A stretch of 64,000 bases of DNA, taken from positions 1 to 64,000 of the forward strand of contig NZ_JAMHGA010000044.1 of NCBI RefSeq assembly GCF_023660105.1, in the 5' to 3' direction. This DNA comes from Desulfovibrio aminophilus (lineage in GTDB: Bacteria > Desulfobacterota > Desulfovibrionia > Desulfovibrionales > Desulfovibrionaceae). Shown in pieces: positions 4,756-12,560 of the stretch (within the stretch, counting starts at the first letter, position 1; every line of letters starts with the position of its first letter). Under the pieces are notes generated by a model, which searched no databases, had not been told where the DNA came from, and worked only from the letters and a program-made list of their open reading frames with translations. The position numbers were made by a program, and so were the translations under genes.

Positions 4756-5238
4756 TCACGACCCGGGCGAGCCGGGGCTTGCGGCGCCGGGGTCGCGGCG
4801 TCCGAGATCGCGGGCGAAGTCGCCGAGGATGCGGGCGTGGTCGAAGGCCAGCGGCGGCAAGGCGTCCAGGGGGAAGAAGCGGGCCGAGCGGGCGTCGTCG
4901 CCGCCTCGTGGTTCGGCCGGATTCTCGGCCTGGGCCGTGTAGACCACGCTCAGGGTGTGCCCCCTCGGGTCGCGGGCCGGGTCGGAATAAACCCCCAGCA
5001 GGCCCGTGAGGACCACGCGCAGACCGGTTTCCTCCCGCGCCTCGCGCACGGCGGCCTGCTCGCAGGTCTCGCCCCGGTCCACGAACCCTCCCGGCAGGGC
5101 CCAGCCCAGGGGTGGGTTGGCCCGCTCCACCAGGACCACACCCCGCGAAGGGTCGAAGATCACGGCGTCCACCGTGGGCAGGGGATTGCGCGGCTCCGGC
5201 AAGGCAGCCCCGCAATGCGGGCATTTCCGATCGTTCAT
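4756..5238 (-). CDS. Nudix hydrolase
   Basis: A 160-residue Nudix hydrolase, cleaving nucleoside diphosphates linked to another group. The Nudix box runs from [18 protein letters not shown] to REETGL (about residues 50-72) with the expected REXXEE glutamates. A CPHCG pair (C6, C9) at the N-terminus looks like half of a zinc ribbon. I prefer the ATG at 5238 over the upstream ATG at 5280 because the latter would fall 6 bases from the predicted transcription start and adds non-conserved sequence; neither has a good Shine-Dalgarno. Position before glgA suggests an ADP-sugar or ADP-ribose substrate, but this is inference. Confidence 0.85.
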
Positions 5239-5292
5239 CGTGTCGGGTATCCACTTTCGGGGCCGGCAGCCCCGCCGCATCGCATTCTTTGT

Positions 5293-5321: not shown

Positions 5322-5397
5322 TGACACGAAAGACGGGAAAAAAGCGCACCATAGAGATTATCATACGCGGCGGGGGAAGTCTCGACCAAACCCGCTG

Positions 5398-5465
5398 AAA
5401 ACGAAAAGGCTTCCGGGGACCGTCCCCGGAAGCCCGTTTCGTGCTTCGGTGCAAAAGAAAGGATG
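5398..5465 (-). ncRNA. Putative sigma-54-dependent small RNA, copy 1
   Basis: Predicted to start 12 bases after the -12 element (near 5465) and to end in the uridine run at 5407-5398, about 68 nt. The 5' part reads AUCCUUUCUUUUGC, an unpaired pyrimidine tract complementary to purine-rich ribosome binding sites. The 3' end is a 12-13 bp stem (5434-5408) followed by UUUUCGUUUU, a strong intrinsic terminator. No start codon with a reading frame fits. Promoter and terminator only 40 bases apart are best explained by a regulatory RNA. No resemblance to a named RNA family was recognised. Confidence 0.68.
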
Positions 5466-5473
5466 CTTGAGCC

Positions 5474-5492
5474 ATAGCAGGGAGCGTGCCAA
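5474..5492 (-). promoter_or_regulatory. Sigma-54 promoter, copy 1
   Basis: The minus strand reads TTGGCACGCTCCCTGCTAT from 5492 to 5474. The GG (-25/-24) and GC (-13/-12) are separated by exactly 10 bases, and the first eight bases match the -24 consensus fully. The same 19 bases recur unchanged in all three repeat copies. Such promoters need RpoN and an ATP-dependent enhancer-binding protein. Confidence 0.82.
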
Positions 5493-5603
5493 CTCCAGGG
5501 AGCATGTGCACATTTCCTTTTTATTCAATGAATCCAGCATGAAGGATGCACAGATCGCAACACCCGGCCCAACACGCCGGGAGGCGAAACGGTTCCAGTT
5601 TTT

Positions 5604-5614
5604 GCACCTCGTGC
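5604..5614. promoter_or_regulatory. Inverted repeat, possible enhancer-binding site, copy 1
   Basis: GCAC-CTC-GTGC, centred about 144 bases upstream of the predicted start of RNA copy 1, lies in a conserved stretch of roughly 35 bases. Distance and symmetry suit an upstream activator site for a sigma-54 enhancer-binding protein. A second palindrome, ATGTGCACAT (5504-5513), lies just upstream of the -24 box. Confidence 0.4.
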
Positions 5615-5771
5615 TCGCTCTTGAGTCTCGGGCGGCGGCACTATCGACCATAACCGCATGTTTTCACTTGAAAATATAAATTCTGCCCGGACCAGGGCCC
5701 GGGGAGGAAAAAACTGAACCGGCCCGGCCAGGCTCCGCTCCGGACCCGTGGCGCGGGAACGCCGGACGCTG

Positions 5772-5840
5772 AAAAACGAAAAGGCTTCCGAGGACCGTCC
5801 CCGGAAGCCCGTTTCGTGCTTCGGTGCAAAAGAAAGGATG
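5772..5840 (-). ncRNA. Putative sigma-54-dependent small RNA, copy 2
   Basis: The same predicted RNA as copy 1, ending with the stem at 5809-5783 and the uridine run to about 5772. Between predicted start and terminator it is identical to copy 1. The single change inside the stem (plus-strand G to A at 5791) gives a G-U pair in the minus-strand RNA but an A-C mismatch on the plus strand, so the structure is kept only in the minus-strand transcript. Confidence 0.68.
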
Positions 5841-5848
5841 CTTAAGTC

Positions 5849-5867
5849 ATAGCAGGGAGCGTGCCAA
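5849..5867 (-). promoter_or_regulatory. Sigma-54 promoter, copy 2
   Basis: Identical 19-base -24/-12 element to copy 1, read 5867 to 5849 on the minus strand. The bases between it and the predicted start carry two substitutions relative to copy 1, while the promoter itself has none. Confidence 0.82.
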
Positions 5868-5978
5868 CTCCAGGACGTATGCGCACATTTATTTTTTATT
5901 CAATGAATCCAGCATGAAGAATACACAGATCGCAACTCCCGGCCCAGCACGCCAGGGGGCGAAACGGTTCCAGTTTTT

Positions 5979-5989
5979 GCACCTCGTGC
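5979..5989. promoter_or_regulatory. Inverted repeat, possible enhancer-binding site, copy 2
   Basis: GCACCTCGTGC at the same -144 position relative to RNA copy 2 as in copy 1. The flanking sequence from about 5961 to 5999 is unchanged, although nearby bases have diverged. The palindrome next to the -24 box is here ATGCGCACAT (5879-5888). Confidence 0.4.
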
Positions 5990-6146
5990 TCGCTCTTGAG
6001 CCTTAATCGGCGGCATCAACAATCGCAATAGTTTGTTTTCACAGATAAATTTAAATTTCGCCCAGGCCCGGGCCCAGGGAGGAAAAAACTGAACCAGCCC
6101 GGCCAAGCTCCGCTCCAGACCCGTGGCGCGGGAACGCCGAACGCTG

Positions 6147-6214
6147 AAAACGAAAAGGCTTCCGAGGACCATCCCCGGAAGCCCATTTCGTGCTTCGGTG
6201 CAAAAGAAAGGATG
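6147..6214 (-). ncRNA. Putative sigma-54-dependent small RNA, copy 3
   Basis: Third copy, stem 6183-6157 and uridine run to about 6147. It has three changes relative to copy 1 in the terminator region; the stem change again converts a G-C pair to G-U in the minus-strand RNA and the others fall in the loop or outside the stem. The pyrimidine-rich 5' part is unchanged apart from one base at the predicted start. Confidence 0.66.
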
Positions 6215-6222
6215 TTTGAGTC

Positions 6223-6241
6223 ATAGCAGGGAGCGTGCCAA
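6223..6241 (-). promoter_or_regulatory. Sigma-54 promoter, copy 3
   Basis: Identical 19-base element, read 6241 to 6223 on the minus strand. Similarity to the repeat ends immediately upstream, so this copy has a different control region, including a consensus IHF site. Confidence 0.82.
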
Positions 6242-6280
6242 CCTCGGGCCCGTCCTTTGAAAAAATAAAACATCAAATAA

Positions 6281-6293: not shown

Positions 6294-6355
6294 TGCATTT
6301 CCAACGACGCTCCGTCTACAAATGCGAAACCATGCCGCCGGGCCCATTTTTTGTA

Positions 6356-6396
6356 CACGCGAACCACGGCAGCCCGCGCCATAGGTCACGCGAACC
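6356..6396. promoter_or_regulatory. Direct repeats, possible activator sites for sRNA copy 3
   Basis: CACGCGAACC occurs at 6356-6365 and 6387-6396, 31 bp apart, about three helical turns on one DNA face. The first copy is 142-151 bases upstream of the predicted start of RNA copy 3, the same distance as the inverted repeats of copies 1 and 2. A paired activator site is plausible but untested. Confidence 0.3.
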
Positions 6397-6473: not shown

Positions 6474-7103
6474 TCAGTTCCCGGCCGAAACGCGGAATCC
6501 CTGGGCCTCCAGCTCCGAGACCGGCACGGCCCCGGCGCGGATGAGCCGCAGGCGGCCCGGGCCGTCCAGGGCCACCACGGTGGAAGGTGCGCCGCCCGAG
6601 GGCCAGGGCTTTTGATCCAGCACGAGGTCGGCCTGTACGGCGAGCACGGGGTCCAGTTCAGCCGGAACCCCCGCCGCTGGTTCCCCGCTCAGGTTGGCGC
6701 TGGTGGCCACCAGGGGCGCGCCCGTGGCCGAGCACAACGCGGCCGCCAAGGGATGGGCCGTGACGCGCACGGAGGTGAAGCCCGAGGCGTCCCGGACCGC
6801 CGTGGCCAGCCCCCGGGTGCGCACGAGGACCGAGAGCGGGCCGGGCCAGAAGCGTTCGCCCAGGCGCAAGACGTCCCCGGGCATCTCGCCGTCCAGGATG
6901 CGGCCGAGCCCGTCCATATCCGCCACCACCACGGGCAGGGGCTTGTTCTCGGGCCTGCCCTTGAGCCGCAGCACCCGGGACACGGCCGCGATGTTGCGGG
7001 CGTCGCAGCCCAAGGCGTAGAGCGTCTCCGTGGGGTAGACCAGGACGCCGCCGTGGAGCAGCGCGTCCACGGCGATGCGGATGTCGGTAAATTCCTCGCG
7101 CAT
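6474..7103 (-). CDS. tsaC: L-threonylcarbamoyladenylate synthase (Sua5/YrdC/TsaC family)
   Basis: The enzyme makes threonylcarbamoyl-AMP from threonine, bicarbonate and ATP, the first step of t6A37 tRNA modification. The 209-residue protein has the YrdC fold signatures PTETLYALGCDA, RLKGRPENKPLPV and TSANLSGEP. A much longer frame continues upstream to 8912, but that part is a shadow of the opposite-strand glycosyltransferase. The ATG at 7103 begins MREEFTD and aligns with family starts. It has no Shine-Dalgarno and coincides with the start predicted from the promoter at 7110-7138, so the mRNA may be leaderless. Confidence 0.92.
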   Translation of the reverse strand: MREEFTDIRIAVDALLHGGVLVYPTETLYALGCDARNIAAVSRVLRLKGRPENKPLPVVVADMDGLGRILDGEMPGDVLRLGERFWPGPLSVLVRTRGLATAVRDASGFTSVRVTAHPLAAALCSATGAPLVATSANLSGEPAAGVPAELDPVLAVQADLVLDQKPWPSGGAPSTVVALDGPGRLRLIRAGAVPVSELEAQGFRVSAGN

Positions 7104-10707: not shown

Positions 10708-12369
10708 ATGCTCGACAGCATCCAGCAGTGCATCGAAACCCTGGAGCAGGGCGTCCTGGACCTGGAATCCGGCTCGGGCCGGACCGCCGAGGTCATGGAG
10801 AAGCTCGGGCTCTCGCACGTGAAGCTGCCCTCGGCCCAGGTCATCACCCTCCTGGACATGCTGGCCGACGGCATCACGCCCATGAACCAGGACATCGTCT
10901 CGGCCTTCCTGGGGGTCTGCGAGGCGCACAAGAAGCTGCTCTACGCCCTGGCCGGATTCCTGGAGCAGGGCGCGGGCGTGCTGCGCTCCGGCAAGGAGCT
11001 GGCCCCGGCCCAGGTGGACGCGCCCATCCCCGCCGCGCCCCCGGCCCAGGAGGAGGCCGCCCCGGCCGGACAGCCCGAGGAGCACCACGACGAGCACGCC
11101 CAGGACAAGGTCCACGAGGCCCAGGCACACGCCCGCCAGGCCATAGCCTCGGTGCGGGTGGGCACGGACCGGCTGGACAAGCTCATCGAGCTGGTGGGCA
11201 AGCTCATGGTCACCTACGCGGTCATCTCCCAGGCCGGGAACGGCGACATGGCCAAGACCCTGGCCGGACTGCGCGACATGGACTCGGTCATCGGCCGGCT
11301 CCAGACCGAGGTGGAGGCCATCCGGCTCGTGCCTCTCAAGCAGATCGTCGCGCCCATGCAGCGGCTGGTGAAGAGCCTGAGCCAGAAGATCGGCAAGAAG
11401 GTCCGCTTCGAGATCGAGGGCGAGGACCTGGCCCTGGACAAGTCCATCGTGGAGTCGCTCAACGAACCCCTGGTGCACCTGCTGCGCAACGCCCTGGACC
11501 ACGGCCTGGAGCCCGCCGAGGAACGCGCGGCCGCGGGCAAGAACGAAACCGGCACGGTGCGGCTCTCGGCCCTGCGCAAGGGCGAGACCGCCTACCTGCT
11601 CGTCTCCGACGACGGCCGCGGCATGGACCCCGAGCGCATCCGCCGGAAGGCCGTGGAAAAGGGACTCATGAAGGAGTCCGAGCAGCTCCCCGAGGCCGAC
11701 ATCCTCCAGTTCATCCTCAAGTCCGGCTTCAGCACCGCCGAGCAGATCACCGACGTCTCGGGTCGGGGCGTGGGCATGGACGCGGTGGTCAACGCCATCC
11801 GCGTGGGCCTCGGCGGGGACATCCTCATCGAGAGCGACCTCGGCAAGGGCGCCACCTTCACCATCAGCATCCCGCTCTCGCGCTCGGCCAACGAGGGCAT
11901 CGTGGACGCCCTGGTCTGCCGCCTGGGCCAGGAGGTCTTCCTCATTCCCAGCCGGGACGTGGTGGAGATCTACGCCCCGGCCGAGCGCGACGTGGTGGCC
12001 CTGCCCGGCGACCGCGAGACCGTGGACGTACGCGGCGAGGTCCACGCCCTGCTGCGCCTGGACCGCTTCCTGGACACCCCCTCGGACGGGCGGCCCATCG
12101 ACCGCAGCCAGGCCGTGGTGGTCCGCGTGGGCGACGCCCGGGCGGCCATCCTGGTGGACGAGGTCCTGCGCCAGCAACAGGTGGTCATCACCGGCTTCAC
12201 CGTGCCCGTGCAGGACATCTTCGCCCTGCCCATCCTGGGCCTCGGCATGATGGGCGAGTCCGACGCCGTGGTGGTCAACGTGGAGGAGCTGCTGCGCCAC
12301 TTCCAAGGCCGGACGCCCCCGCCGCAGGACTCCGGGCCGTCCTTGACAGCGCTTCCCGGCCAGGGATAG
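10708..12369 (+). CDS. CheA-like histidine kinase lacking the phospho-histidine
   Basis: A 553-residue kinase. Residues 1-97 resemble the latter helices of a P1 domain but contain no HTxKG site. Then come a Pro/Ala/Glu/His linker (98-135), a dimerisation helix pair (GTDRLDKLIELVGKLMV), an HATPase domain with LLRNALDHGLEP (N box), DDGRGMD and GRGVGMD (G boxes), and a C-terminal CheW-like domain ending near residue 540. The kinase must phosphorylate a histidine in trans, most simply H47 of the preceding Hpt-STAS protein. No CheW, MCP, CheR or CheB gene is nearby, so this is probably not a flagellar chemotaxis set. Confidence 0.85.
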   Translation: MLDSIQQCIETLEQGVLDLESGSGRTAEVMEKLGLSHVKLPSAQVITLLDMLADGITPMNQDIVSAFLGVCEAHKKLLYALAGFLEQGAGVLRSGKELAPAQVDAPIPAAPPAQEEAAPAGQPEEHHDEHAQDKVHEAQAHARQAIASVRVGTDRLDKLIELVGKLMVTYAVISQAGNGDMAKTLAGLRDMDSVIGRLQTEVEAIRLVPLKQIVAPMQRLVKSLSQKIGKKVRFEIEGEDLALDKSIVESLNEPLVHLLRNALDHGLEPAEERAAAGKNETGTVRLSALRKGETAYLLVSDDGRGMDPERIRRKAVEKGLMKESEQLPEADILQFILKSGFSTAEQITDVSGRGVGMDAVVNAIRVGLGGDILIESDLGKGATFTISIPLSRSANEGIVDALVCRLGQEVFLIPSRDVVEIYAPAERDVVALPGDRETVDVRGEVHALLRLDRFLDTPSDGRPIDRSQAVVVRVGDARAAILVDEVLRQQQVVITGFTVPVQDIFALPILGLGMMGESDAVVVNVEELLRHFQGRTPPPQDSGPSLTALPGQG

Positions 12370-12372
12370 ACG
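12343..12372 (+). promoter_or_regulatory. Promoter candidate for the cobalamin operon
   Basis: TTGACA (12343-12348), 18-bp spacer, TAGACG (12367-12372), inside the last codons of the CheA-like gene. It would start transcription near the 5' edge of the riboswitch. The -35 box is perfect, the -10 box poor. Confidence 0.4.
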
Positions 12373-12560
12373 GAAGGCTCCTTCAGGCGCCCGCGAGGGC
12401 TTCATAGGGAATCCCGTGCGAATCGGGAGCGGTCCCGCCGCCGTAAGCTTCATGCAAAGCCCGTCCCCGCGACGGCCACTGGGGAAACCTGGGAAGGCCG
12501 GGACAGGTGAAGCGAGCCGGAAGACCTGCCTGGAGGTGTCGAGGCCGGTTCGGCGTCCAC
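12372..12560 (+). ncRNA. Cobalamin (B12) riboswitch
   Basis: The leader contains the B12-box landmarks in order: AGGGAATCCCGTGCGAATC, CGGTCCCGCCGCCGTAA, CCACTGGGGAAACCTGGGAA and AGCCGGAAGACCTGCC. This is a class I cobalamin aptamer. Adenosyl- or related cobalamin binding should promote the terminator at 12603-12640 and switch off the genes downstream. The stem GGTTCGG...CCGAACC (12547-12580) links aptamer and terminator and may belong to the expression platform. Boundaries are approximate. Confidence 0.93.

Follow-up and report, generated by a model that had tools for sequence, protein, structure and literature searches.

Tandem sigma-54-type small RNA genes in Desulfovibrio aminophilus: a conserved family with porin mRNAs as predicted targets

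A tandem array in the window (the whole stretch of 64,000 nt of D. aminophilus DNA that was analysed) would encode three near-identical trans-acting small RNAs (sRNAs) of ~68 nt, each under a separate sigma-54 promoter with enhancer-like sites. According to the proposed mechanism, a sigma-54 activator predicted to bind the palindrome GGTTCAAAAnTTTTGAACC would turn on all copies together, and the free 5' pyrimidine stretch of the sRNAs would pair with the Shine-Dalgarno (SD) region of porin mRNAs and block their translation, with neither Hfq nor ProQ taking part. We put the probability of this reading, a multi-copy sigma-54-driven sRNA that represses porins, is coordinated by an activator, and acts independently of Hfq and ProQ, at roughly 85%, judging from sequence analysis. 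We lean, by a narrower measure, towards the broader proposition that such a family coevolves with porins and represses them across the Desulfovibrionaceae, that a single activator also regulates the porin promoters directly, and that the system is an independently arisen counterpart of OmpR/MicF/OmrAB. The best-known sRNAs that repress porins are those of gammaproteobacteria, which require Hfq and are controlled by sigma-E or OmpR. The array points to an apparently complete porin-control circuit in organisms where neither Hfq nor ProQ was found, a circuit that sigma-54 would drive and the tandem copies would amplify.

Architecture of the array

The array occupies positions 5393-6242 (period 375, 2.3 copies, 89% matches in Tandem Repeats Finder) and contains a 101-nt promoter-RNA-terminator core three times, starting at 5393, 5768, and 6142, with spacings of 375 and 374. 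This bears out the preliminary description of the locus, which had reported a tandemly repeated unit of 374-375 bp with identical minus-strand -24/-12 promoters. The 19-mer TTGGCACGCTCCCTGCTAT, which comprises the -24/-12 box, has exactly three occurrences in the 3.54-Mb genome, all of them in the array copies, and a scan of that genome at up to 2 mismatches revealed no further sites (the reversed control gave 0). The sigma-54 element itself, of the form GG-N10-GC with conserved TGGCAC and TGC, is the same in all three copies. With the C of the GC element taken as -12, the predicted transcription starts (Table 1) yield RNAs of ~68 nt, as had been proposed. The intrinsic terminator described for each copy is likewise recovered as a stem with a U-tract (fold z = -4.3 versus shuffles). 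The stem is lengthened by a lower helix, ACGAAA/UUUUCGU, and in the fold with this extended hairpin the 5' portion, 5'-GCAUCCUUUCUUUUGCA, is almost unpaired. A protein-coding reading of the array RNA was rejected; its short ATG frame is missing from the homologues.

Table 1. Positions of the predicted sRNA genes, their control elements, and conserved neighbours in the window
Feature	Position	Strand	Basis
NUDIX hydrolase gene, conserved neighbour downstream of the array	4756..5280	-	locus conservation
sRNA copy 1, predicted +1 near 5465, terminator 5398-5434	5398..5465	-	core repeat, fold, conserved in relatives
Copy 1, predicted porin-pairing stretch GCAUCCUUUCUUUUGC	5451..5466	-	complementarity
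Copy 1, -24/-12 sigma-54 promoter TTGGCACGCTCCCTGCTAT	5474..5492	-	exact match, genome scan
Copy 1, proximal enhancer-like palindrome, ~-117	5591..5609	-	motif matrix
Copy 1, distal enhancer-like palindrome, ~-228, weaker	5703..5721	-	motif matrix
sRNA copy 2, predicted +1 near 5840	5773..5840	-	core repeat
Copy 2, predicted porin-pairing stretch	5826..5841	-	complementarity
Copy 2, -24/-12 sigma-54 promoter	5849..5867	-	exact match, genome scan
Copy 2, proximal enhancer-like palindrome	5966..5984	-	motif matrix
Copy 2, distal enhancer-like palindrome, weaker	6078..6096	-	motif matrix
sRNA copy 3, predicted +1 near 6214	6147..6214	-	core repeat
Copy 3, predicted porin-pairing stretch, 5' G -> A	6200..6215	-	complementarity
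Copy 3, -24/-12 sigma-54 promoter	6223..6241	-	exact match, genome scan
Copy 3, upstream enhancer-like palindrome TGTACAAAAAATGGGCCCG, weak	6339..6357	-	motif matrix; conserved in G001 and G002
Sua5/YciO/YrdC gene, conserved neighbour upstream of the array	6474..7103	-	locus conservation

Two further observations concern other places. A segment at G000:C18:219954-219997 matches the terminator portion of the sRNA at 83% identity (E 0.007) and carries no promoter. At 12368-12547 the window contains a cobalamin riboswitch (Rfam RF00174, 96.3 bits), located upstream of an anaerobic cobalt chelatase-like gene and an ABC transporter operon.

Conservation of the sRNA family

Homologues were sought by a pattern search followed by a sequence-only model, R1, that extends from the promoter to UUUUGCA and covers the promoter and the 5' end of the RNA. 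At E<=0.001, R1 reached 97 of the 348 genomes of the order, and the matches listed all fall within the window's own family. Among ~83 of the R1 matches listed, seven are leaders of mRNAs and a few more are doubtful; the remaining ones combine the promoter with a CAUCCUU or CAUCUUCC start and a terminator. A promoter spacer one base longer was used in one family scan, which retained a true relative with such a spacer (in G113), and in a collection-wide DNA scan, which returned chance matches only.

Both other genomes examined in the genus carry the unit: in G001 it is present three times, twice in tandem and once 6 kb off beyond an insert, and in G002 once, on a short contig. G024, a member of a different genus, has one copy at the same locus, with a valid but different -24/-12 element, TTGGCATGCCGGTTGCTAA. 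In ~20 genomes the sRNA gene lies, as in the window, between genes of the Sua5 and NUDIX types. Three copies are present at this locus in G045 and G208 and at another locus in G285, and two copies each are found in G111, G113, G024, G276, G294, and G281. In the relatives the -24/-12 element is conserved and the bases of its spacer have diverged; within one subtype (20 copies), 4 of the 11 pairs of the terminator stem have changed on both sides in a compensatory manner. Promoter, pyrimidine-rich 5' end, terminator, and enhancer-like sites are kept together in other genera, and this co-conservation is the comparative evidence for the array of sigma-54 sRNA genes that had been proposed initially. 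As judged from these comparisons, the array is a member of a real sRNA family that spans Desulfovibrionaceae-type genera. The gene anatomy, its conservation, the phasing of the enhancer-like sites, and the complementarity and covariation described below are all seen directly in the DNA.

Complementarity to porin mRNAs

When the complement of the sRNA 5' stretch was searched in the genus, it returned the sRNA genes and the starts of porin genes encoding MKRLVLLATLLAFV; the latter matches are in the SD position and are shared by all three species. Over 13 nt, the conserved 5' stretch, UCCUUUCUUUUGC, is perfectly complementary to the ribosome-binding sites (RBSs) of two porin genes (DESULF_POR1), whose product is an outer membrane homotrimeric porin (NCBIfam NF033939, 536.7 bits). 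Exact non-self sites for the perfect 13-nt complement GCAAAAGAAAGGA number two in the sister genome G001, both in porins. G000 has three: besides two in porins there is one that is not conserved in the sister species.

The pairing was compared among the 32 genomes, from 12 genera, for which both sequences were available, with each sRNA set against the RBS of its own porin. The mean pairing energy was -22.5 kcal/mol for own porins versus -17.1 for swapped pairs, and the longest perfect complement was 11.1 nt versus 8.1 nt (p 0.0002 by permutation in each case). With one genome per genus, own pairing still exceeded swapped pairing at p 0.003, the smallest value that the test could give. The longest perfect complements reach 16 nt in G111 (with the genus-specific GUUUUG) and G045 (with UUCGUU), 15 nt in G270, and 13 nt in G221; pairing is weak in G037, G054, G137, and one of the G208 copies. 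By these measures, the sRNA and the porin site covary from genus to genus. The suggestion in the preliminary description that the 5' tract could mask ribosome-binding sites, together with its call for target prediction among these sites, has thereby acquired a concrete predicted target, the porin RBSs, with a perfect 13-nt match and covariation across the 32 genomes.

An RBS rich in purines will tend to show some complementarity in any case, and the sRNA could potentially be a general anti-SD sRNA under sigma-54 control, with porins as one of many targets reached through a purine-rich RBS. The 5' stretch is indeed rich in CCUUCC/CUUUU in every genus, and in the genomes near-matches to its 14-mer outnumber those to the reversed control. 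However, the covariation extends beyond the SD core into the genus-specific GUUUUG and UUCGUU of G111 and G045, sRNAs pair better with their own porin RBS than with that of another genus, the exact non-self 13-nt sites of the sister genome are confined to the two porins, and the porin RBSs out-pair nearly all other genes tested, the background genes pairing far more weakly. A general anti-SD function is therefore regarded as unlikely, and the specific pairing with porin mRNAs is preferred.

Enhancer-like palindromes, the predicted activator, and chaperones

Motif discovery in 24 upstream regions yielded the palindrome GGTTCAAAAnTTTTGAACC, typically with two sites per promoter. When sRNA promoters at other loci, 67 in all and held out from training, were scored with the matrix built from these regions, 94% lay above the 95th percentile of intergenic controls; the best sites fell at -159 to -152 or -119 to -112 in 48 of the 67, compared with 4.4 expected. 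Because each copy carries such phase-locked enhancer-like palindromes, a single sigma-54 activator is predicted for the whole set, and it probably drives all sRNA copies together.

Most porin genes also have this palindrome upstream, with a median best score of 19.2 and 79% scoring above the 95th percentile of the controls. Its positions there vary, and in the window's genus it overlaps, as judged by eye, a TTGTAA-N17-TACAAG promoter. Since the palindrome lies upstream of both, the simplest reading suggested by these data is one regulator acting on both sRNA and porin, and the sRNA activator would then also act on porin transcription through the palindrome in the porin promoters. Transcription of the sRNA genes, repression of the porins, and the identity of the protein bound at both promoters are what we infer from the features described here.

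Two candidate activators were considered and rejected. In G287 (L136 3672-6886), an sRNA copy immediately precedes a pair of genes for a histidine kinase and a sigma-54 response regulator, and this response regulator is the only activator candidate encoded right beside an sRNA gene. Its orthologues are widespread and do not track the presence of the sRNA, being missing in several sRNA-bearing genomes, and in the window's genome no palindrome lies upstream. The second candidate, a PAS-type sigma-54 activator (Pfam PF00158) encoded between sRNA copies b and c of G001 (L034 3522-8907), is probably part of an unrelated insert, since the window's genome and other relatives are without it at this locus. 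No activator genes were found near the porins inside the flanks examined.

Searches with working positive controls detected Hfq in 0 of 99 genomes (the window's own and 98 relatives) and ProQ in 0 of the 59 genomes searched. Since neither chaperone was found, the sRNA must act chaperone-free or via another protein.

Comparison with known systems

In Rfam, no family reaches threshold in the array at either the gathering or the permissive setting, and Qrr gives no match even at E<=10. The best reading is that the array sRNA would work like OmrA/B or MicF with a promoter logic in the style of Qrr, belonging to none of them.

OmrA and OmrB repress outer-membrane proteins and are controlled by OmpR. 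In enterobacteria they form a tandem pair of sibling sRNAs whose pairing region, the 5' end, is conserved (PMC4211561). The array sRNAs share this organization and are also complementary to outer-membrane protein mRNAs, but they differ in being predicted to be driven by sigma-54, in having up to three copies, and in their sequence and target porin family, with no Rfam match and no Hfq or ProQ found. MicF is complementary to the RBS of a porin mRNA, that of OmpF, and a regulator motif, that of OmpR, is common to the sRNA and porin promoters. The array sRNA is similarly complementary to a porin RBS, and the same palindrome, as a predicted site, is present at the sRNA and porin promoters; unlike MicF, it has a sigma-54 rather than a sigma-70 promoter, several copies, an unrelated sequence, and no Hfq.

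The Qrr sRNAs of vibrios are several near-identical sRNAs with sigma-54 promoters (PMC4211561). The likeness to Qrr noted in the preliminary description stands with respect to promoter logic, i.e., several near-identical copies with sigma-54 promoters and one predicted activator; it fails with respect to the target and to Hfq dependence in a genome without Hfq. The array family is also often tandem rather than dispersed and has no sequence relation to Qrr. A quorum-sensing circuit of the Qrr type, with several sRNAs, a LuxO-like activator, and a master regulator as the target, could explain the common enhancer-like sites of the copies and the two-component pair beside one G287 copy. Given that no Hfq was found, that Rfam gives no Qrr-like match, that the strong complementarity is to porins, and that orthologues of the response regulator are missing from sRNA-bearing genomes, such a circuit is considered very improbable.

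P11/NrsZ of Pseudomonas is sigma-54-controlled, as the array sRNAs are predicted to be. Weak matches to its Rfam family (RF00625) span copies 1 and 2, but they score 18.3 bits against a threshold of 70.

D. vulgaris also has sigma-54-controlled ncRNAs, including Dv_sRNA2/DVU0679; the ncRNA loci are described beside DVU0653, DVU0679, DVU2357, and DVU3282 (PMC3333781, PMC4641369), and the four sigma-54 ncRNAs listed are all without known function (PMC4641369). These are sigma-54 ncRNAs in a related organism, compared with the array by locus description only, and porin pairing provides an immediate target hypothesis for them. No literature linking Desulfovibrio sRNAs with porins was found among the papers searched. 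The family offers a natural data set on sRNA-target covariation over a whole bacterial family.

Genes between copies and related leaders

Unrelated genes lie between the copies in G001, G294, and G276, as if inserted, which would suit a repeated DNA element or integration target that was copied by recombination and whose promoter and terminator are incidental; this explanation is barely credible, since single-copy homologues occupy the same locus, promoter spacing, 5' stretch, stem pairing, and enhancer phase are kept while the remainder diverges, and the 5' stretch covaries with the porin. The case of a dispersed repeat without conserved promoters, named in the preliminary description, is likewise excluded.

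As read from translations, the G001 insert also encodes a sulfotransferase-like protein, a DMT-type transporter, and a BCCT transporter. In G294 and G276 (L075 4254-5693 and L074 4878-10619), sRNA copies near uvrA flank unrelated genes in an insertion-like arrangement: these encode an Nramp-like transporter and, in G276, a repeat-rich calcium-binding-type protein, a substrate-binding protein, and a phosphatase-type regulator. In genus g8 (L180, L189, and L197), a strong sigma-54 promoter is followed by ACATCCTTGAAGC, leading an mRNA with a good ribosome-binding site; this leader resembles the sRNA 5' end and possibly belongs to a different regulated gene.
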